Part shown: positions 9,890 to 64,000 of the stretch, piece after piece
How positions within the stretch are numbered: the first letter of the stretch is position 1
Layout of the letters: each line of letters opens with the position of its first letter
NCBI GenBank assembly: GCA_002708905.1
Contig: PAPM01000034.1
Span: 186,001-250,000 of the forward strand
Origin: Pseudomonadales bacterium
Lineage (GTDB): Bacteria; Pseudomonadota; Gammaproteobacteria; Pseudomonadales; Ketobacteraceae
DNA: 64,000 nucleotides
Direction: 5' to 3'
The notes under the pieces: generated by a model
Seen by the model: the letters and a program-made list of their open reading frames with translations, nothing else
The model's database searches: none
Told to the model about the DNA's origin: nothing
Position numbers and translations under genes: made by a program

Positions 9890-11383
9890 ATGAAACGACT
9901 GGCAATGATTGACGACACTTTTTTGCGTCTGGAGAGCCGGCGGCAGCCGTTACACATCGGCATGCTGATGGTGCTCCAGCCACCTGAAGGAGCAGGAAAA
10001 GATTTTGCAGCGAATATTGCTCAACGCCTGAAACAATACACAACCATAGCCCCACCCTTTAATCAGCGTCTGGTAAACCGCAACGGAATCCACTACTGGA
10101 CAGAGGATTCTGAACTGGATCTTGATCATCACTTTGTTCATCTCTCCTTACCTGAGCCGGGAAGAATTCGAGAGCTGTTGGCGATGGTTTCCCGTGTACA
10201 CAGCAGTCATCTGGATCGAGCATTCCCCCTGTGGCGACTCTATCTGATCGAAGGCATCGAAGACGGTCGGATCGCCATGTACCTGAAGATTCACCACTCC
10301 ATGACCGACGGTATCGCCGGTATCAAGATGCTGGCGGCATCCATGTCTACGGATCGGCAGACATCCACAACCATGCCTCCGAACTGGTCCATTGGTATCG
10401 CAAAGTCGAAGTACAAACAACCACTACCGGTGCCTACACCGCATTTGACCAGCGTCTCAGCACTACGCTCCGTAGCCCGCGACGGCCTGGTCTCCGGTTT
10501 GAAGTCCGTTCGCGCAGTGGGTCGTGAGCTGTATCATTCGTTCAAAGATTTTCGTACCCACAATCCGGACTTTGCCCTGGGCGGCCAGGCACCGCGAACG
10601 ATATTCAATCATAAGGTAAGCGCATCCCGACGATTTGCCGCCCAGTCCTACTCCATGCCAAGAATACGAGCGGTCGCGCAATCCTGCGGCGGTTCGAGCA
10701 ATGATGTTATTTTGGCAATGTGTGGCGGTGCCCTGAGACGTTACCTGGAAGAGCGCAATGAACTGCCGGATACGCCACTGCTGGCGGCGGTTCCCGTCTC
10801 CGTGCGACGGGAAGGACACACATCTGACGCGGCCAATGAAGTAGCGTTTACCATGGCGCATCTGGCCACACACATCAATGATCCGGTAGAACGACTGAAT
10901 GCAATTAAAAGTTGCATGGATTACAACAAAGAAAAGATCAAAAAACTGTCCCCGGGGGAACTGACTGCCTATGCGGCCATGATGCTGTTACCCGGCGCCA
11001 CCAACAGCTTGTTAGGCTATGCACCAAACAAGGCCTTGGGAACGGTGGTGATTTCCCACGTGCCGGGACCCAGAGAGGATATGTACTGGCAAGGTGCCAA
11101 ACTTTGCGGGTTATATCCAGTGTCGCTGGTGGTGGACAGCGTGGCGCTCAACATAACCATCATCAGCCGTCACGACTTTGTCGATTTCGGCTTGATTGCC
11201 TGCAGCAAAACCGTGCCCAAAGTGCAAATCCTTTTAAAATTCCTGCAAGAGGCCCTGGAAGAACTGGAAGCCAGGCTCGGGTTAACTCACATCGATTCGG
11301 CTCCGCAAATTCCGGCGGAACATCGCGAGAACAACCAGGAAGCTATACCGCAAGCGGAAGCGACCGCCGAATCCAGTCACTGA
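9890..11383 (+). CDS. Wax ester synthase/diacylglycerol acyltransferase (WS/DGAT)
   Basis: The 497-residue protein carries the active-site motif HHSMTDG (residues 135-141) of the HHxxxDG acyltransferases, the PLW triplet (113-115) and a C-terminal region with SHVPGPRE and a two-turn helix typical of bacterial WS/DGAT enzymes. These join acyl-CoA to fatty alcohols or diacylglycerol, making wax esters or triacylglycerol at the inner membrane and lipid droplets. Length is near the usual 450-500. The start ATG has GGGAG ten bases upstream. The divergent acyl-CoA ligase and the nearby TetR gene suggest a lipid storage region. The last 25 residues are a polar tail without conservation. Confidence 0.88.
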   Translation: MKRLAMIDDTFLRLESRRQPLHIGMLMVLQPPEGAGKDFAANIAQRLKQYTTIAPPFNQRLVNRNGIHYWTEDSELDLDHHFVHLSLPEPGRIRELLAMVSRVHSSHLDRAFPLWRLYLIEGIEDGRIAMYLKIHHSMTDGIAGIKMLAASMSTDRQTSTTMPPNWSIGIAKSKYKQPLPVPTPHLTSVSALRSVARDGLVSGLKSVRAVGRELYHSFKDFRTHNPDFALGGQAPRTIFNHKVSASRRFAAQSYSMPRIRAVAQSCGGSSNDVILAMCGGALRRYLEERNELPDTPLLAAVPVSVRREGHTSDAANEVAFTMAHLATHINDPVERLNAIKSCMDYNKEKIKKLSPGELTAYAAMMLLPGATNSLLGYAPNKALGTVVISHVPGPREDMYWQGAKLCGLYPVSLVVDSVALNITIISRHDFVDFGLIACSKTVPKVQILLKFLQEALEELEARLGLTHIDSAPQIPAEHRENNQEAIPQAEATAESSH

Positions 11384-11439
11384 CTACAATGCAGACCATT
11401 AATGCAGGCTATTACATGGGGGCAGGGTTTGGTTTCCGT

Positions 11440-12135
11440 CTACGCCGAAATCGCCCGGCGGCAGAACTCCCAAATATCCTTGGCGAGATCCTTTTTCTTG
11501 GACTGATCGACCTGCGCATTTTCGGAGGTCAGCAATTCTGAATGTACGGTGGTGGAGACCAGGTTGTAGAGCAAGGTAGCAAGGCGCCGGGGGTCATCGT
11601 TTCGCACCACGCCTGCCGCCATACCATCTGCGAGAATTTGTTCGATCAGGGCCACCAATGGCTGCAACGCTCTCTTCAGGTCCGCCGGACGGGATTCCGC
11701 CAGACGCAGGTGCTCGCGGCTTAACGCAGCACCCCGGCGATCGGTGTAGGCTTCGCCCTGAATGCCCCTACCCAGTACGATAAAAGTCACGATCAGGCGC
11801 AATTGCTCCAATGGATTCTCCATAGAGGCCACCCGCTCGGTAAAAAAACGAACCGCTTTGCGAATGGTCTCCTCAAATACCGCCAGCACCAGGTCGTCCT
11901 TACCCCCGAATCGCTCATAGAATGCACGCCGCGACAGCCCGGTACGGGTCAACACCGCACGAATGGTCAGGCCTTCCAGGCCCGCTTCATCCAGCAGCTC
12001 ATAGGCCGCATCAACGATTTTTCGGCTGCGCTCCAGTATCTGGTCCTGGCCCTCTTCCAGCACAGGCTGTGCAGCGCGCTGTTCCCAGTTCGCCGGGTCA
12101 AGGTCTTCTCTGTGGGGGGTTGCAGGCTTGTTCAT
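11440..12135 (-). CDS. TetR-family transcriptional regulator
   Basis: The 231-residue protein has the TetR helix-turn-helix at about residues 40-90 (ILERSRKIVDAAYELLDE..., then LTIRAVLTRTGLSRRAFYERFGGKDDLVLAVF), with a longer than usual polar N-terminal extension. The C-terminal ligand domain is helical and unassigned. It lies convergent to WS/DGAT and divergent to the fatty acid hydroxylase-type gene at 12331; a perfect palindrome in the divergent promoter (12269-12283) is a natural operator. It therefore probably represses the hydroxylase gene and perhaps itself in response to a lipid or acyl-CoA. Confidence 0.88.
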   Translation of the reverse strand: MNKPATPHREDLDPANWEQRAAQPVLEEGQDQILERSRKIVDAAYELLDEAGLEGLTIRAVLTRTGLSRRAFYERFGGKDDLVLAVFEETIRKAVRFFTERVASMENPLEQLRLIVTFIVLGRGIQGEAYTDRRGAALSREHLRLAESRPADLKRALQPLVALIEQILADGMAAGVVRNDDPRRLATLLYNLVSTTVHSELLTSENAQVDQSKKKDLAKDIWEFCRRAISA

Positions 12136-12235
12136 GGAATAAATTAGAACATTTTATAGGGGATCTGTGTTCCGGTATTTCGCCCTTTTTCTTGATTCAT
12201 GTCAACTTGACCTTTCAGAAACCTTAACTTCTTAG

Positions 12236-12283
12236 TTGACTATCGGCCGTAAAAGCGGTTTACTCTCCGAGAACGCTGTTCTC
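12236..12283 (+). promoter_or_regulatory. Promoter with palindromic operator for the desaturase gene
   Basis: A -35 TTGACT (12236-12241), 17-base spacer and -10 TTTACT (12259-12264) place transcription start near 12271. A perfect palindrome GAGAAC-GCT-GTTCTC (12269-12283) straddles that point, where a bound repressor would block initiation. The divergent TetR gene is the obvious candidate regulator; binding is inferred. Confidence 0.55.
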
Positions 12284-12330
12284 AGAATCCATTTTAATGA
12301 GAATCGGTTTACGCCTTGGAGTCTAACAAT

Positions 12331-13143
12331 ATGTCTTTTTTGCCTGAAAACTATCACTTGGGGCTTTCCCTAATCGCATTTGCGAGCATTATCGTCTTCC
12401 AGATCGTCAGCCGGAGCCTGGGTAAATTTATTCCGGTTTTTGGACGTGCAGCCAAGCTGAACAAGGAAACCTACGACAAAAAGATGGAACGGAAGATCTA
12501 TTCTGACAACCAGAAGCTGAACCGCAAGTGGGGGCTGGTAGACACTTTGGTTATCTTTTTCCTGATCATTCCTTTCTGCGTGACGGCGGAGATGCCCCCG
12601 TTGTGGAAAATGGCACTGGACGTCTTCGTCATCCTGATGTTCTATGATTTCTTCTATTATCTGACCCACCGCTTTGTGTTCCATGGTACCGCTGACCGCA
12701 ATGGCCCGTTGCAGTGGGTTCATGCTGTACACCACCAGCAGAAGAACCCTTGCCGTGGCGACTCCAGCTACATCCATCCACTGGAGGTGGCCATCGGCTT
12801 GGGGCTTTATGCCGGCAGCATTCTGGTACTCTCGCTGTTGATGGGTGAGTTCCATGTGGCGACCATCGTCATCACCTGGGTAGCCTTCTCAGAGATCAAC
12901 AACCACAATCACGACCTGTGGGAAGAAGACCGCTTCCCCTACAAGTACCTGAACTATGCATCCAAGATGCACCACGTTCATCACGCTCGTTTCACCGGCG
13001 GCAACTTCGCTACCATCTCACTGCTCTATGACTGGTTATTCAATACCTATGATACCGGTGATGGTTGGGGTAAAAACAAGCGGGAGCCCAGCGCGAGTAA
13101 AACGACCAAGGCTGTTGAAAAGACTGTTGAAACAGCGAACTAA
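12331..13143 (+). CDS. Sterol desaturase/fatty acid hydroxylase family membrane protein
   Basis: The 270-residue product has several membrane segments (about residues 9-27, 75-92, 95-115, 160-185) and the histidine clusters that bind the di-iron centre of this family: THRFVFH, HAVHH (HxxHH), an asparagine/histidine stretch NNHNH and HHVHH (HxxHH). Members hydroxylate or desaturate lipids, sterols, carotenoids or alkylglycerols; the substrate here is unknown. The ATG at 12331 is preferred over the in-frame TTG at 12316 because GGAG at 12318-12321 sits nine bases upstream of it. Its promoter carries a candidate TetR operator. It converges with the TPR gene over a shared hairpin. Confidence 0.85.
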   Translation: MSFLPENYHLGLSLIAFASIIVFQIVSRSLGKFIPVFGRAAKLNKETYDKKMERKIYSDNQKLNRKWGLVDTLVIFFLIIPFCVTAEMPPLWKMALDVFVILMFYDFFYYLTHRFVFHGTADRNGPLQWVHAVHHQQKNPCRGDSSYIHPLEVAIGLGLYAGSILVLSLLMGEFHVATIVITWVAFSEINNHNHDLWEEDRFPYKYLNYASKMHHVHHARFTGGNFATISLLYDWLFNTYDTGDGWGKNKREPSASKTTKAVEKTVETAN

Positions 13144-13153
13144 ACCATTGCAA

Positions 13154-13180
13154 AGAACAGGGGCCCGCGGCCCCTGTTCT
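13154..13180. terminator. Hairpin between convergent genes
   Basis: A perfect 12-bp GC-rich stem (13154-13165 with 13169-13180) and a 3-base loop lies between the convergent stops of the desaturase and TPR genes. T-runs are weak on either side, so it is probably a shared but imperfect bidirectional terminator. Confidence 0.65.
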
Positions 13181-13197
13181 GCGATGAGAGAAACAGG

Positions 13198-16100
13198 TTA
13201 CGCGAGCAGGTAGAGTCTTAACGCCCAGAACAAACGCATCCCCATCGAACCCCGGTAGCTGCTCACCAGATAGCGCCTGACCTGCCGGTTAAATCGCACA
13301 CCAACGTTACTCGCAGAAATCTCCCTGAACTCGCGCTTGGCACGTTTAAAGGCTTCCACCACCGCAGCCGAGGCATGGTCCAGTCCACCTTCCCTGTTCA
13401 CCGTATCCAGAATACAAAGTAATCCAAAGCTGTATTGCTCAAAGCTGGAGAGTTCATTGAACCGAATACGGGCCAGTTGATCCGCATCCAGGGAATGCCC
13501 GCCAAGGAGCACCGCCTGAGCCAACTGCCACAGCAAAATGCGGTCATAATAGGAATCCTCAGGCAGAGATGCCGCAAACTCATTCACCGCATAGGCCTGA
13601 CCCCATTTACCAGCCAAACGCAGGCCGTAACTGTAGAGATAAACCGCCCAGGCTTCGTTACTCTCTCGCTGCCAATTAGGCGCACACCAACGACGCAGTT
13701 TTCTCCAGTTCTGAATGCGGGAGTAATGGAATGTAACCAAAGACCAAAGCCGGCCATTCTCCGCCAGGGCTGACTTGAACTTTTTAATGACCACTTCGGC
13801 AAAGCCACCATATTTGCCGGTACTGAAAATGGCTTCCATGGCATTCATCCAAAGCTCACCACCCGTCTCCAGCGGTTGTAGATACTTCAGGATGGTATTG
13901 GCTTTCTTTTCAAAATCCAGGCAATAAAGTGCCCACAACCAGCCCAGCATGCTGTTGGCCTTGGGGTTTGACAGCTGCTGCTCCAGAAATTGTTTTAATT
14001 CCTTGGCATAGCCCGCATCCACCAGCTCCCGGTAACTGGTCACATAGATCCAGTCATTGCTGTCTTCCGATTCGATCACCCTCGGGAGCAGCTCAAAGGC
14101 CAGATCACGATCCCGGCAACGGGCCGCGGCCTGTAATTCCCGCACCAGAAAATATGGGTTATCCGGATCATGGTGGATAATCTTTTGCGCCCGCGTCAAT
14201 TCCTGCCATTGTTTCTTTTCCAGCAGAAAATCGATCCAGGTCAGACCGTTATATTGGTCTTTTGGCGCCAGTACGACCGCCTTCTCCAGCAAAGCACCAA
14301 TGGCTTCATCGGCAACATCCACATCATTATGCTGCGCTTCAAGATAGATCTCTGCGGCCAGTGTGAGTGTTGGGGGCGAATGGGGGTACAAGCGGACACA
14401 GGTATCCACATGTTTTACGGCCTGGTCGTATTGACCCAGTGTTTGGTTCCACTCCGCCAACAATCTCCAGGCATCGTAATAATGGGGAAAGCGCTGGGTC
14501 AATGGCTCCATTAGCGCAATGGCCTCCTCATAGCGCTGAAACTTGGCTTCCATCCAGGCTTCAAACGCCAATAGCGATACCGGCGGGTTATTGTTCCACT
14601 TTGAGCTATGAATCAGTTCTTTAACCGCCCCAATCCTGTTCAGTCCGAACAGCGCCCGACATTTGATGAGGTTGATGTCCTCGTTTCTGGGATGGTGAAC
14701 CAGGGCCTCATCCAGATACAGCAAACGTTGTTCCAGATCATCCTCAAACTCCGCCAGTTTGCACCATACAGTTACGCTGTGGGGACGTTCCTGCAGAATA
14801 GATTTGGCCAACTCCTTCGCTGCGCCGGGCTTATCGGTTTTCTGAACCAGGCCACGATAACGATCCCATGCCCAATCGTAACGCGGATTCAGCTCCAGTG
14901 CTTTTTCAAGATGTTTGATGGCTGCATCGGTTTTACCTTCCCCGACTAAAAGATCGGCTGCGCAGCCGTGAAATATCGAGTTGGTGGGAGCAAATTCCAG
15001 CGACTTTTGAATCAAGGCCAACGCTTCGTCATAACGCTTTTGGGTTTCAAGCACATCCATGAGGCGGATTATGGCGGATTCCCACTGCGGATTCTGTTTC
15101 AGGGCCTCTTGAAGATCCGACTCCGCCGCCGCAAAATTCTGCGCGAAAAAGTGGATATTGGCTCTACCCAAATACAAACGCGGCAACAAGGGAAACCTGG
15201 CTATTGCCTGATCTGCATAGCCTAATGCACGCTCCAACTGGTCCATTGTCTGCAGATGAGAGAACAGTGCGTACCAGGATTGCCATAAGTCCGGACGAAT
15301 CTCTACTGCCTTTTCCAGAAAACTAAGCAGCTCTTCATCTTTGACCAGATTGCGGGCCACCTCTTTGTAATCGAGAATGCCACTGCCGTAGGAAGTCTGC
15401 TTCATCAGCTGATCCAGTATATAGTTCAGCTCCTTTCGCTTTTCCTCAAAGGTCTCATGGCAACGCAACAAACGGTCAAACACGCCGTCTGCATCGACCG
15501 AATACTCTAATGTGCTGCGATAGATTTTGTGGGCTTTTGCCACCTGCTCCTGCTGAAAATAGATGTCCCCCAGGGCGAGGGATACTTCAACATTGTAGGG
15601 ATTGATTTCATATGCGGTTTCAGCGGCCGCACAAGCTTCATCAAACCGATGTTGGCGCATGAGAATTCTGGCCAGCTGCAAATAGCCATCATAAAGCGAC
15701 GGATGGATCTCAATAATGTGCTTACAGAACGCCTGCTGTTCCTCCAGGCTGCGCTCGAACAACCAATCGAGCTTCATGAACAGCAGTGCTTTATCCTGTT
15801 CATTCAGCTTAAGCCTGGAATCCAGAAACTCAATAGCAGCATCACTGCCTTGGTGACGCCCGAGCAATGCCGCCTGGGACTCAATGACACCATAGTTAAG
15901 GGGTTGCCGCTGCAGGATTTTATTATTGAAATCGATTTCCCGCTCCCAATCACCTCGATGACGGGAGATATCGGCCGCCAGGGATAAACGCGCAACCTCG
16001 GAGAGTTTGTCTTTGCTGCCGTTAAACAACGCAGCAGATTGCTGGGTTTTGCCATTGTAGAGGTAGCTACGAACCAGGCGCTCAATCACTTGGCTATCGT

Positions 16101-58598: not shown

Positions 58599-58997
58599 AT
58601 GATCCGGTTTATTGTCATCCATTTGCATCGCACCAGCGCCCGGTTGCGCTTTCTCAATTTCAGTAATTACCTGTGCGGGCCGACACCACTGCCCAAACTG
58701 ATTGAACTGACCGTTGCCCCCAAGGGTAATGCCCCCAGCGAGCATCCTTCTTCCTCTCTGAAAAACCTGCGTGCTTATTTAAGGCTGGAAGAATCCCAAC
58801 TGGAACTGGTGCCTGAATTCCGTTGCTGGATTGAAGCACCCGGGGAAGTAATCCCCATTTACATGGCGGTGGCCAGTGGGCCGGACCCATTCGCTGCACC
58901 CGCCGGTAGCCAATGGATCGGACTACCGGAGAGTTGGATGTTCACGCCCCTGGAGCGTGAACTGATGCGGGAAGCTTACGAGTTCCTGCTGACCTGA
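58599..58997 (+). CDS. Hypothetical protein
   Basis: The 132-residue protein has no recognised motif; it is a soluble-looking mixed sequence with Pro-rich turns (LTVAPKGNAPSEHPSSSLKN). No clear ribosome site precedes the ATG. It stands between the diguanylate cyclase and the convergent unknown gene; 195 bases upstream hold no gene. Codon use fits the genome. Function unknown. Confidence 0.6.
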   Translation: MIRFIVIHLHRTSARLRFLNFSNYLCGPTPLPKLIELTVAPKGNAPSEHPSSSLKNLRAYLRLEESQLELVPEFRCWIEAPGEVIPIYMAVASGPDPFAAPAGSQWIGLPESWMFTPLERELMREAYEFLLT

Positions 58998-60597: not shown

Positions 60598-61038
60598 TTA
60601 GTGGCCAACGAGATCCCCCGTCGCCCCGGTTAACCAGATCACTACCGCGTAACGGGCGCCTTTGCCGATACCGCAAAGGAGCAGCAACACCCACCAGCGC
60701 ACTTTCATTACACCGGCAATGAACGTCAGGGCATCGCCTCCCACGGGTAACCAGGCCAACAGCAAACTCCAGCTGCCGTAACGTTGAAACCAGGCTTGGG
60801 AACGATGCAGTGATTCGGCTTTGAAAGGAAACCAACTGCGGTTTTCGAAATGCAGGAGGTAGCGCCCCATGACCCAGTTCACCCAGGCCCCCAGGGTATT
60901 TCCCAAGGTTGCAGCCCCCCACAGTGCCCACACATTCTTACCTTCCAGCAGCAACGTCACCAGCACCACTTCGGAATAAAACGGCAGCAGAGTGGCTGCC
61001 AGGAAGGCACTGAGAAACAGCAGCCCGTAACTGATCAT
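60598..61038 (-). CDS. yqaA: YqaA/DedA-like inner membrane protein
   Basis: The 146-residue protein is a small SNARE-associated/DedA-type membrane protein: LPFYSEVVLVTLLL, the GNTLGAWVNWVMGRY pattern and LLAWLPVGGDALTFIAG, with 3-4 membrane segments. DedA relatives move lipid carriers or keep envelope homeostasis. Its ATG overlaps the upstream stop (ATGA), making it the third coupled gene after the amidoligase and amidotransferase. In E. coli yqaA lies beside gshA, another amide ligase gene; whether that is meaningful is unknown. Confidence 0.87.
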   Translation of the reverse strand: MISYGLLFLSAFLAATLLPFYSEVVLVTLLLEGKNVWALWGAATLGNTLGAWVNWVMGRYLLHFENRSWFPFKAESLHRSQAWFQRYGSWSLLLAWLPVGGDALTFIAGVMKVRWWVLLLLCGIGKGARYAVVIWLTGATGDLVGH

Positions 61039-61790
61039 GAAACCTGTGGATCCTGTAAGGTAAGATGGCTGTCATTGCGACGAACCGCCCGGGCAAACAT
61101 GGAAAACAGTCGACGCTGGGTGCGCTGGTAGGGCAGGTATTCCGGATGCCATTGCAGTCCCAACAGAAAACCATACCGGCCTTCGATGGCTTGGATAAAG
61201 CCGTCGCGGTCCCTTCCCACCACCGAGAGCCCATCACCAATGCGCTCAATGGCCTGCTCATGTAAGCTGTTTACCCTGATCGCATTGCGGTTCAATTCAG
61301 CCACCAGGCGACTACTACTCTCCAGATCAACCCACTTGATCGGTCGAACGCTGCGCCGGTTAGGCGTAACCCTGCGCAGAGGCCTGATATCCTGGTATAA
61401 AGTACCACCGGCTACCACATTGATCAGTTGGGCTCCCCGACAGATTCCGATCATGGGCAGGTTGGCTTGCAGAGCCTGCTGGATCATCGCGATCTCAAAA
61501 CGATCCCGCTCCACATCATAGCGCCGCCGCGGGTGCCACTCACCGCCGTAATGCTCGGGTTCAATATCGTCACCACCACCGATGACAATACCATGCACCG
61601 GTTGCTGGGGCATGCCGGTGTGGGCCGTCACATACACACATCTTAATCCCACTAATCCCAACATAAAGCGCGTTGCCCACCAGGCAAATGGGAAGCGTTT
61701 GTGGGGTCCGGTTACCGCAATCAAAGGGGATTCCTCCGGAGTATGTGCGATGGGAGCCTGTTCAATGGGCGCCTGCCGTTGGATAGTCAT
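61035..61790 (-). CDS. Class I glutamine amidotransferase/gamma-glutamyl hydrolase (peptidase C26, PuuD-like)
   Basis: The 251-residue protein has the class I triad: Cys117 in IGICRGAQLIN, His215 and Glu217 in LGLQWHPEY, and the GGGDDIEPEHYGGE segment of PuuD/peptidase C26 enzymes. PuuD splits gamma-glutamyl-GABA in polyamine breakdown. The first 20 residues are not conserved. It overlaps the amidoligase stop (ATGA) and the yqaA start, so the three are translated together. A gamma-glutamyl amide made by the amidoligase would be a natural substrate. Confidence 0.9.
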   Translation of the reverse strand: MTIQRQAPIEQAPIAHTPEESPLIAVTGPHKRFPFAWWATRFMLGLVGLRCVYVTAHTGMPQQPVHGIVIGGGDDIEPEHYGGEWHPRRRYDVERDRFEIAMIQQALQANLPMIGICRGAQLINVVAGGTLYQDIRPLRRVTPNRRSVRPIKWVDLESSSRLVAELNRNAIRVNSLHEQAIERIGDGLSVVGRDRDGFIQAIEGRYGFLLGLQWHPEYLPYQRTQRRLFSMFARAVRRNDSHLTLQDPQVS

Positions 61791-62785
61791 TCCTCCTGTA
61801 ACAAGCTGCGTGACGTATTAAGCCACTCGGAGTCGAAAGGTGTGGTGAACGAGTGCAGGTATTTGCTGTAACGGGAACAAAAGTGTTGCAACCGATCCGG
61901 CGCCGTGGCCAGCCGCTCCACCTCCAACCAATGTCTCCAGGGTCGATCCAGATTCCAGTTTTGATTATCGATATCGCAGTTGGGCAAGCGGTAATGCAAA
62001 GTAGGCCGGGACTTGATGCGCGGATCATCCAGGCGGTTACGCACCCGGGGTTCATCCAGAAACGCAAACAGCGGCAGCATGTCCATACTGCGGTTACGGG
62101 TGGGATTGTAATCAATATAGTCGTCGATGAGTTGTGGCAGACCAGGTTGGTAATCCCTATCGATCACCAGTTGAATGTAGTCCTTGCCGAAGTGTTTTAT
62201 GTAGTTGGTGAGCTTACGGGTAAGATCGATTTGATCCTGGTCCGCAAGCCACTCATACAAGCACAGATACGCCCGCAGATAAGCCAAAATGGTCTCTGTA
62301 CCGGTGGCGGGTAATTCCGGGTTCAGATGCAGGCCGAAGGCATAGCGAATGCTGTTACGGGTCCCCAGGGCGCCGGCATCCCGCAGCCGGTTGAACAACT
62401 GAGACACCTCCGGTAACCGGGAAACCGGTACCGGCGGTGTCACCAACTCCCAGGGCACAAACTGTTCCGCCGCCTTGGTGAGCAGTTCAGTGGCCACGGC
62501 TTCAATGGAAAACTCATCATCCAGATCACCGGATTCCTCCATCAGCGCCCCCAGGGACTTGATGTAGGTGGCATCCAGTTCAATACCGAATTTTCCCAGC
62601 TCAGTGTCGTGAATAGAAAATTCAAAACTGTTGTGACGCTCCAGTCGACCGCCAAACTGATCCCGCACCGCCTGGATGATCTGGGTCGGCTCCAGACCGG
62701 CGAACTCCAGCTCCACACCCACCCGGCGCTCAGCTCCGGACTCAGTATGGATTGCAGGTGGTAACCACAGGCTGGTATCCATCAC
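61787..62785 (-). CDS. Amidoligase-family enzyme (carboxylate-amine ligase)
   Basis: The 332-residue protein starts with the family core RRVGVELEF (residues 20-28), and has the SIRYAFGLHLNPELP segment with His as expected for the putative amidoligase family (PF12224), whose members are glutamine synthetase-like folds proposed to form amide or peptide bonds using ATP. It lies 35 bases after potD, which brings in polyamines, and is coupled to a C26 hydrolase. It may gamma-glutamylate a polyamine in place of PuuA. This is inference from context. Confidence 0.85.
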   Translation of the reverse strand: MMDTSLWLPPAIHTESGAERRVGVELEFAGLEPTQIIQAVRDQFGGRLERHNSFEFSIHDTELGKFGIELDATYIKSLGALMEESGDLDDEFSIEAVATELLTKAAEQFVPWELVTPPVPVSRLPEVSQLFNRLRDAGALGTRNSIRYAFGLHLNPELPATGTETILAYLRAYLCLYEWLADQDQIDLTRKLTNYIKHFGKDYIQLVIDRDYQPGLPQLIDDYIDYNPTRNRSMDMLPLFAFLDEPRVRNRLDDPRIKSRPTLHYRLPNCDIDNQNWNLDRPWRHWLEVERLATAPDRLQHFCSRYSKYLHSFTTPFDSEWLNTSRSLLQEE

Positions 62786-62820
62786 AACAGGCCTCCACTC
62801 TCAAGAAATTCAATTTGGAA

Positions 62821-63852
62821 CTACTTACCCGTCTTCAGCTTTTCCCAATAGTCATTGTAAAGCTTCAGGGCATCACCAACGTCGGTCTGGAATTCACCAT
62901 TGGCGACGGTATCGGCGTCCGGGAAGATGATCTTGTTGCTGCGTACATTCTCATCCAGCAGTTCATAGCCTTTCAGGTTCGGCGTGGCATAGCCGATCTC
63001 TTCACTACAGAGTTTGGCGATGTCCGGGCGCAACATAAAGTTAATAAATTTGTGCGCGGCTTCCACATTGGTGGAACCAGCCGGAATGGCGAAGCTGTCC
63101 ACCCAGAAAATAGCGCCTTCCTTTGGGTAAATATAATCCAGGTCAGGCATTTCTTCCTGGGCCATAATGACTTCACCATTCCAGATCATACCCAGATCCA
63201 CATCTCCGGCCATATAGGGTTCGCGCGGCGCATCGGAGTTGAACACCAACACATTAGGCATTAACTGTTGCAGTTTTTCGTAGGCTTGGCGAATTTCGTC
63301 CGGATTGGTGGTATTGGCAGAATGACCATTGATTTTCAGGGCCATATGAAAAACTTCCCGCACGTCGTCCGTCAACAACAGCTTGTTCTTCCACTTGGCA
63401 TCCCACAGATCCGCCCAACGGGTAATGGAGCCCTTTGCCAGCGCTTCCGTGTTGATACCAATTCCCGTGCTGCCCCACATATAAGGGACACTGTACTGGT
63501 TTTCAGGATCATAGGGCTTGTCCAACAGTGCCGGGTTCAGGTTTTTCAGGCCGCTCAGCTTGCTTTTGTCCAACGGCTGCAGCAGGCCTTCGGCCCGCAT
63601 CTTGGCAATGTAATAGGTTGAGGGCACCACCACATCATAACCTTTGCCTTTCTGCAATTTCAGCTTGGAATACATCACTTCATTGCTTTCGAAGGTGGTG
63701 TAGTCCACTTCGATACCGGTTTCTTTGGTGAACTGCTCCAACACCCCTTCAGGCAAATATTCGGACCAGTTATAAAACACCAGTTTTTCGGCAGCTTGCG
63801 CTGTGACGCTGCAGGCCAACAAAACAGGAACCAGCAAAGATCTCAGTTTCAT
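62821..63852 (-). CDS. potD: PotD, spermidine/putrescine-binding periplasmic protein
   Basis: The 343-residue protein has a signal peptide (cleavage near AQAAE) and closely resembles E. coli PotD: FYNWSEYLPEGVLEQFTKE, VVPSTYYIAKMR, LLTDDVREVFHMAL, LGMIWNGEV and IFWVDSFAIPA, which include the acidic and aromatic polyamine ligands. It works with PotABC. The ATG shares its A with the potC stop (TGATG). Confidence 0.95.
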   Translation of the reverse strand: MKLRSLLVPVLLACSVTAQAAEKLVFYNWSEYLPEGVLEQFTKETGIEVDYTTFESNEVMYSKLKLQKGKGYDVVVPSTYYIAKMRAEGLLQPLDKSKLSGLKNLNPALLDKPYDPENQYSVPYMWGSTGIGINTEALAKGSITRWADLWDAKWKNKLLLTDDVREVFHMALKINGHSANTTNPDEIRQAYEKLQQLMPNVLVFNSDAPREPYMAGDVDLGMIWNGEVIMAQEEMPDLDYIYPKEGAIFWVDSFAIPAGSTNVEAAHKFINFMLRPDIAKLCSEEIGYATPNLKGYELLDENVRSNKIIFPDADTVANGEFQTDVGDALKLYNDYWEKLKTGK

Positions 63853-64000
63853 CAGGTTTTCCTTCTTAATAGCAATGGAACAATGATTACAACGACTAAA
63901 GAAATCAGCATGAGCAAGGTGGCCAGCACATTCACCTCCGGTGAAACACCCACCTTCACCATGGAAAACACCCGGATGGGCAGAATTTCGAATCCCGGGC
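63852..64000 (-). CDS. potC: PotC, polyamine ABC transporter permease (partial, C-terminal end)
   Basis: The last ~48 codons of potC, running off the window. The readable end PIRVFSMVKVGVSPEVNVLA matches the coupling and last helix region of PotC, followed by a hydrophobic helix and basic RRKT. It overlaps potD by one base. potA and potB are expected beyond the window. Confidence 0.9.
   Translation of the reverse strand, partial: PGFEILPIRVFSMVKVGVSPEVNVLATLLMLISLVVVIIVPLLLRRKT

Follow-up and report, generated by a model that had tools for sequence, protein, structure and literature searches.

An amidoligase and a C26 hydrolase beside a polyamine importer in Ketobacter: a candidate pair for reversible gamma-glutamyl capping

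At the right end of a 64,000-nucleotide stretch of a Ketobacter genome (G000:C33:186001-250000; the whole stretch is hereafter the window), genes for a polyamine importer of the PotABCD type run into genes for an amidoligase (AMD), a C26 gamma-glutamyl hydrolase-like protein (C26), and a YqaA-like membrane protein. The locus raises the question of what a ligase and a hydrolase would do directly behind an importer, and on which amine they would act. In our best reading, AMD and C26 form a ligase/hydrolase pair for gamma-glutamyl amides. AMD would couple an amine to the gamma-carboxyl of glutamate in an ATP-dependent reaction, and C26, as the matching hydrolase, would remove the glutamate again, so that the pair could act as a reversible gamma-glutamyl "capping" switch; both glutamate as the acyl donor and capping as the role are what we infer. 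Polyamine gamma-glutamylation is plausible, and since AMD and C26 share one apparent operon with potABCD, the amine would most likely be a polyamine, either imported through PotABCD or synthesized by the cell itself. Capping could lower the charge or toxicity of the polyamine, or store it until C26 releases it, with YqaA as a putative accessory membrane protein. We put the probability of reversible gamma-glutamyl capping by AMD and C26, with a polyamine as the amine in this Ketobacter, at about 50%.

The gene run and its two enzymes

The run lies on the minus strand in the order potA-potB-potC-potD-AMD-C26-yqaA, with potA, potB, and most of potC beyond the window. AMD (61787..62785; 332 amino acids) matches Amidoligase_2 PF12224 at 220 bits (cut-off 22) and starts at a GTG, or alternatively at an ATG one codon downstream, preceded by GGAGG. 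C26 (61035..61790; 251 amino acids) matches PF07722 at 153 bits (cut-off 20.5), and yqaA (60598..61038) encodes a VTT-domain membrane protein of 146 amino acids (VTT, 50 bits; cut-off 33.9). Upstream of AMD, the gene for a potD-like polyamine-binding protein (62821..63852) adjoins the 3' end of potC (63852..64000), which continues to G000:C33:250649. PotA, PotB, and PotC all pass their NCBIfam equivalog cut-offs (592 bits against 482, 408 against 348, and 393 against 326, respectively), and PotD falls short of its own (NF007048, 472 bits; cut-off 582). Every gene is therefore in place for the original prediction, drawn from the letters of this stretch, that potC and potD run straight into an amidoligase, a C26 hydrolase, and yqaA. 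The joints matched that prediction in part: the 35-base gap stands, between potD and AMD, but of four overlaps only three lie in the stretch, namely a one-base TGATG overlap at potC/potD and ATGA overlaps at AMD/C26 and C26/yqaA. Outside the window, potB and potC overlap by 17 bases, potA and potB are spaced by 9 bases, and mpaB lies upstream of potA in divergent orientation. A site scan listed neither a promoter-like nor a terminator-like site in the potD-AMD gap; the scan gave fewer promoter-like sites than shuffles (3 versus 5.2) and 12 terminator-like sites versus 7.7 (standard deviation 2.4). Co-transcription of the pot genes with AMD and C26 is probable on this arrangement.

Within Pfam at E 0.001, AMD matches PF12224 only, and NCBIfam returns no match. 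Neither GGputSyn (NF045547) nor PF00120 is matched, which leaves AMD outside the PuuA/glutamine synthetase (GS) family by sequence. Profile comparison of AMD with the speA-linked GS of the same genome (see below) gave nothing, and a sequence search for relatives of solved structure returned matches only at E above 0.2, none of them convincing. The original prediction of an amidoligase unlike PuuA is borne out at this level, though the predicted fold is GS-like. The predicted model (pLDDT 90.5) aligned with a glutamine synthetase over the length of AMD in VIA, a re-examination of Foldseek's own matches (Z 13.2, rmsd 3.6, 213 residues aligned); GmaS and a 1-naphthylamine GS gave Z scores of 12.2 and 12.4, and the GS family made up all 50 matches listed for the model. 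The model has the glutamine synthetase/GCS catalytic-domain fold. Residues E25, E27, E69, D71, E113, R230, R232, R260, H264, and R266 are invariant in 52/52 sequences. The first motif may correspond to the ExE motif of GS, and HYRLP to its metal/arginine strand. The modeled structure would fit an ATP-dependent ligase, with glutamate as the putative acyl donor.

C26 belongs to Peptidase C26, with PF07722 above its cut-off and a Cys-His-Glu triad (C117, H215, E217) that is invariant in all 41 sequences compared. The closest folds to its model are SpuA, lin1909, and PuuD (E values from 7e-21 to 1e-16), and amidotransferase domains rank behind, from 2e-12. BLAST aligns C26 with PuuD at 30% identity across 180 positions. 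A PuuD-like gamma-glutamyl hydrolase had been proposed, and the assignment holds insofar as the nearest folds are gamma-glutamyl(polyamine) hydrolases; the PuuD equivalog cut-off is missed (NF008471, 66 bits against 266).

Past yqaA by 99 bases, a gene for a predicted metal-dependent hydrolase of family PF10118 (59644..60498, minus strand) follows, and its membership in the operon is doubtful. Beyond it, at 58599-58997, a 132-amino-acid open frame has no match in Pfam or NCBIfam.

Conservation of the pair and its recurrent neighbors

PF12224 occurs in 7 of the family's 15 genomes, in 100 of 390 sampled from the order, 20 of 369 from the class, and 24 of 398 from the phylum (every count includes G000); the 14 control genomes have none. 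A search for viral relatives of AMD yielded seven pattern stretches, none of which was confirmed. From 187 stretches examined, those without a tblastn match to AMD or with an identical core were removed, leaving 173 loci that differ in a 300-base AMD core. These come from family, class, order, and single-genome samples (the best 80 of 581 in one), with relatives of the window over-represented and counts unweighted for phylogeny; the order's 100 positive genomes entered as 88 wide stretches, with the other 12 as short loci. Neighbor families were assigned by Pfam and NCBIfam on representatives only, the remainder being tblastn matches, distances were measured from alignment ends, and our custom gene caller missed some genes (e.g., potA in L261). 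On this basis, C26 lies directly downstream of AMD in 157 of the 170 loci with more than 800 bases downstream, as well as in 40 of 42 short loci, which partly derive from the same genomes as the 173-locus set. The conserved unit is AMD-C26, and its order is not due to chance.

In 63 of the 173 loci, a gene for a YqaA-like VTT protein stands no more than 4.5 kb from AMD. This recurrence would suit a unit that modifies a cell-envelope molecule or a protein, in which YqaA moves the product or a lipid carrier across the membrane. No such gene was seen in the other 110 loci, where C26 mostly remains, and no envelope biosynthesis gene was conspicuous among the neighbor representatives scanned, which makes an envelope role very improbable.

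Other neighbors, sought within 4.5 kb of AMD, belong to families that cleave gamma-glutamyl bonds. Gamma-glutamyltranspeptidase (GGT) occurs in 7/173 loci spread over three clades of the AMD tree, each time on the strand of AMD and 30-83 bases upstream of it (the family assignment was confirmed in one representative). GGACT (PF06094, gamma-glutamylamine cyclotransferase) occurs in 6/173 loci from four clades, 14-155 bases from AMD and on the same strand in four (family confirmed for three loci); it is present with C26 missing in L260, L261, and L266, and together with C26 in L108, L129, and L223. At L102, an EgtC-like protein (136 bits; cut-off 219) overlaps AMD, and an ATP-grasp/GNAT fusion lies with it directly upstream (L102:6446-8908), possibly as parts of a pathway to a longer gamma-glutamyl product. 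Several of the neighbor-bearing clades are weakly supported, and many AMD loci have none of these recurrent neighbors except C26. The recurrent neighbors of gamma-glutamyl-cleaving families favor gamma-glutamyl bond chemistry.

The near-constant pairing, together with a match of C26 to the GATase family (49 bits), could also be read as a two-subunit amidotransferase like MurT-GatD, in which C26 feeds ammonia from glutamine to AMD and AMD amidates a carboxylic acid. The fold ranking of C26, with SpuA, lin1909, and PuuD ahead of the amidotransferases, argues against ammonia supply, as do the 13 of 170 AMD loci without an adjacent C26, three of which carry GGACT, a family that is not known to supply ammonia. 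We consider an amidotransferase unlikely.

Upstream of AMD in Salinivibrio, we also observed an ATP-grasp protein and a 662-amino-acid protein that matches nothing in Pfam (L134:5644-8842; also L135 and L141).

Importer links and the identity of the amine

Within Ketobacter, mpaB adjoins AMD in G010, G011, and G014, with no pot genes between, an arrangement that would fit a recent insertion of potABCD in G000. That idea is weakened by G014, whose AMD is the nearest relative of the window's (82%) and whose mpaB-AMD gap contains a 44-base piece of potD. The alignment score of this relic is 66, whereas 200 block shuffles (which moved 2-base blocks) gave no more than 33 and 31 other window segments, used as controls, no more than 28; a potD relic was sought in G010 and G011 and was not seen. 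Because G014 holds the relic, the pot-AMD joint appears to be older than the split between G000 and G014, and G014 (assembly 93% complete) would then have lost the importer and kept AMD-C26-YqaA.

A second lineage links AMD to an importer. At L261 and L266, AMD is preceded by GGACT and a cupin/HTH regulator, again with C26 missing, and the regulator is divergent from an ABC operon of ATPase, permease, and binding protein. The L266 ATPase passes the PotA-subfamily cut-off (372 bits against 356), and the permease is PotB/PotH-like, under its cut-offs. To judge from these matches, the importer is Pot-like and its link to AMD probably arose independently of that in Ketobacter. These two importer-linked lineages, in a family mostly without importers, are what suggest a polyamine as the acceptor.

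Several findings weigh against capping of a polyamine by AMD and C26. PotB, PotC, and PotD close to the window's adjoin AMD in 1 of the 173 loci, the window's own (more than 3 kb upstream of AMD was present in 160 of them), and no pot genes were seen in the 42 short AMD loci. Four congeners (G010, G011, G012, and G014) have AMD-C26 and lack a PotD orthologue, the best match being 36% or weaker. The idea that the amidoligase family is linked to polyamines in general is not supported by these counts, and of the potD-amidoligase-C26 co-occurrence proposed for a search across genomes, the AMD-C26 part held and the pot-AMD part did not. PotD orthologues are found in G013 (77%) and G007 (62%), with potABCD away from AMD in both, and G006 has no AMD, yet has a PotD orthologue (64%). 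L261 and L266 are sister loci, from a pair of genomes in the same genus of another family. Their regulator has PuuR as its best NCBIfam match but misses the cut-off (153 bits against 211), the L266 ATPase stays below the cut-off for the PotA equivalog (372 bits, with 482 required), and the binding protein, of family SBP_bac_8, is only 25% identical to PotD. As for the ligase, hhalign of AMD with PuuA gave nothing (probability 0.3%), and Foldseek alone found no match to the AMD model at E <=0.001, with GCL, YbdK, and GS at about 0.02 (best 1.9e-2). The metal-site glutamate of GS seemingly corresponds to a histidine, H264, in AMD. The neighbor counts given above are raw, without a genome-wide background rate, and the pot-AMD-C26-yqaA run contains no PuuB- or PuuC-like genes.

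Alternatively, the gamma-glutamyl compound that AMD-C26 makes and breaks might not be a polyamine derivative but, for instance, one of an osmolyte, a peptide, or another amine, with potABCD joined by chance in the Ketobacter lineage. Nearly all AMD-C26 loci are without pot, and G014 retained AMD-C26 after its pot genes decayed. The neighbors of AMD in the 173 loci would also suit such a compound: besides GGT in seven loci, they include NhaA (5 loci, three clades), glutamate dehydrogenase (2), glutamate-synthase-like proteins (8), AI-2E-type permeases (17), and EctC, the last in three loci only and in one gene order (L055, L100, and L101). Names among the best 80 of 581 loci often hint at marine or saline habitats, as far as names can be read in this way, but this bias may stem from phylogeny and from the choice of the closest 80. 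An osmolyte link via ectoine synthase was tried and is a lead only, with the gene in 6/20 AMD genomes versus 51/349 others, which is not significant (one-sided p = 0.07, two-sided p = 0.10). The PuuR-like regulator and Pot-like importer of L261 and L266 likewise speak against a non-polyamine product, which we regard as a possibility that falls well short of an even chance.

Two gene orders from this comparison are recorded here in their own right. At L055:5789-8046, the genes immediately past AMD-C26 encode an EctC-like protein, a glutamine cyclotransferase, and a formate/nitrite transporter; loci with this order are titled Salinisphaera, and L101 is titled Endozoicomonas. In G013 (L162:308-3101 and 11161-13467), some 6 kb separate potABCD from a lone C26 (68% identical to the window's C26) that adjoins, and is divergent from, a sodium/hydrogen-exchanger gene, and the AMD of that genome (43%) is located elsewhere, with yqaA and without an adjacent C26. 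Divergent from potA in G013 are genes for a sulfatase-modifying-factor-like protein and a histidine-specific methyltransferase, a set that we take to be ergothioneine-like.

The Puu pathway and other known systems

A replacement of the PuuA route had been suggested for this locus. In such a catabolic route, AMD would stand in for PuuA and C26 for PuuD, and imported polyamines would pass into central metabolism. The identity of C26 to PuuD (30%) and the lack of a close PuuA and of a full-length PuuB above 25% in G000 would fit. E. coli PuuA found one match in G000, at 33% identity and 173 bits (cut-off 650), and this protein also misses the GlnA, GSIII, and GGputSyn cut-offs. It is encoded elsewhere in the genome, in a same-strand run of speA, the PuuA-like GS, an aldehyde-dehydrogenase-like gene, and an iron-alcohol-dehydrogenase-like gene (G000:C38; L165:4963-10909), which may serve to gamma-glutamylate agmatine or putrescine. 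The view that G000 has just a housekeeping GlnA was dropped when its single PF00120 gene proved PuuA-like and speA-linked. The search of G000 gave no second match of the GlnA-like kind, and each of five congeners searched has one (identified by match pattern, without a family test); its lack in G000 is perhaps an assembly gap. For PuuB, the best full-length match in G000 reaches 25% (E 2.7e-7), alongside two shorter matches of 36 and 152 residues. The proposed check for absence of puuA and puuB came out as expected for a full-length PuuB above 25%, and less clearly for PuuA, whose only match is the speA-linked protein at 33%. Because no PuuB was found, a Puu-style catabolic route does not appear to be reconstituted in G000.

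The wider distribution also counts against replacement. Among the 369 class genomes, PuuA at E <= 1e-60 occurs in 2/20 AMD genomes versus 38/349 others (p = 1.0), and at 1e-45 in 4/20 versus 54/349 (p = 0.53), where the 20 AMD genomes include G000 and G213, the latter with a weak AMD match. Since PuuA is about as frequent in genomes that have AMD as in those that lack it, with no anticorrelation between the two, AMD does not take the place of PuuA or follow it in distribution, and the replacement proposed in the original prediction is not supported. In the 173 loci, AMD has few Puu homologues nearby, and these are distant (PuuA in one, at 32%; PuuC-like in eight, at 30-40%; PuuE-like in two). 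The AMD run has neither an oxidase nor an aldehyde dehydrogenase, and the PuuA-like GS lies with aldehyde- and iron-alcohol-dehydrogenase-like genes beside speA. A replacement Puu route is highly unlikely.

Iyer et al. in 2009 are said to have predicted a pairing of PF12224 with a glutamine-amidotransferase-like hydrolase, and reportedly also described AIG2/GGACT as a partner of amidoligase in fungi. What differs here is the tie to a polyamine importer, the GGACT partner in proteobacteria, and the count of GGT and EgtC-like neighbors. The pairing of amidoligase and hydrolase is already known; the importer link and the swappable gamma-glutamyl-cleaving partners are new. Among the open-license papers listed by the searches, we saw no report of an enzyme assay for PF12224 or of a pot link.

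The Puu system of E. coli (PuuP-PuuA-PuuR-PuuD-PuuB-PuuC-PuuE) shares with the Ketobacter run the logic of importer, ligase, and C26 hydrolase, and a PuuR-like regulator occurs at L261 and L266. Unlike Puu, the Ketobacter ligase is not PF00120, the run is without PuuB, PuuC, and PuuE, and an ABC importer replaces PuuP. SpuA of P. aeruginosa and PuuD share fold and triad with C26 at 22-30% identity. PuuA, PuuD, and PuuR are described in PMC9397018. A precedent for capping is AtdA1/AtdA2 of aniline metabolism, like NpaA1/NpaA2 a ligase with a glutamine-amidotransferase-like hydrolase that reverses the ligation, much as proposed for AMD and C26 (PMC11335346). AtdA1 and NpaA1 differ from AMD as GS-like ligases of another sequence family, and AtdA1/AtdA2 and NpaA1/NpaA2 act on aromatic amines (aniline and 1-naphthylamine), with dioxygenase genes following. 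Phages have been reported with amidoligases as well (PMC6209634, PMC10945688; also PMC3890496, PMC10580990). Phage-ZRK32 carries genes for a glutamine amidotransferase, an amidoligase, and a gamma-glutamylcyclotransferase together, with glutathione synthase, and the passages seen discuss them as nitrogen and amino acid metabolism (PMC10945688). That set is phage-borne, no importer is described in those passages, and we liken it to the present one by description, not by sequence.

More speculatively, PF12224 might be a second lineage of synthetases for gamma-glutamyl-amines (here gamma-glutamyl-polyamines), independent of PF00120. Its enzymes would belong to reversible capping modules with an interchangeable release enzyme (C26, GGACT, GGT, or EgtC-like), and these modules would have been wired at least twice to polyamine-type importers; we hold this broader proposal only tentatively. 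PF12224 is common in the order and little studied, and its neighbors suggest a concrete reaction, the formation of a gamma-glutamyl amide with a swappable enzyme for release. The Ketobacter operon points to a polyamine as the first candidate substrate. If this is true, bacteria would cap polyamines by a route that PuuA-based annotation misses.

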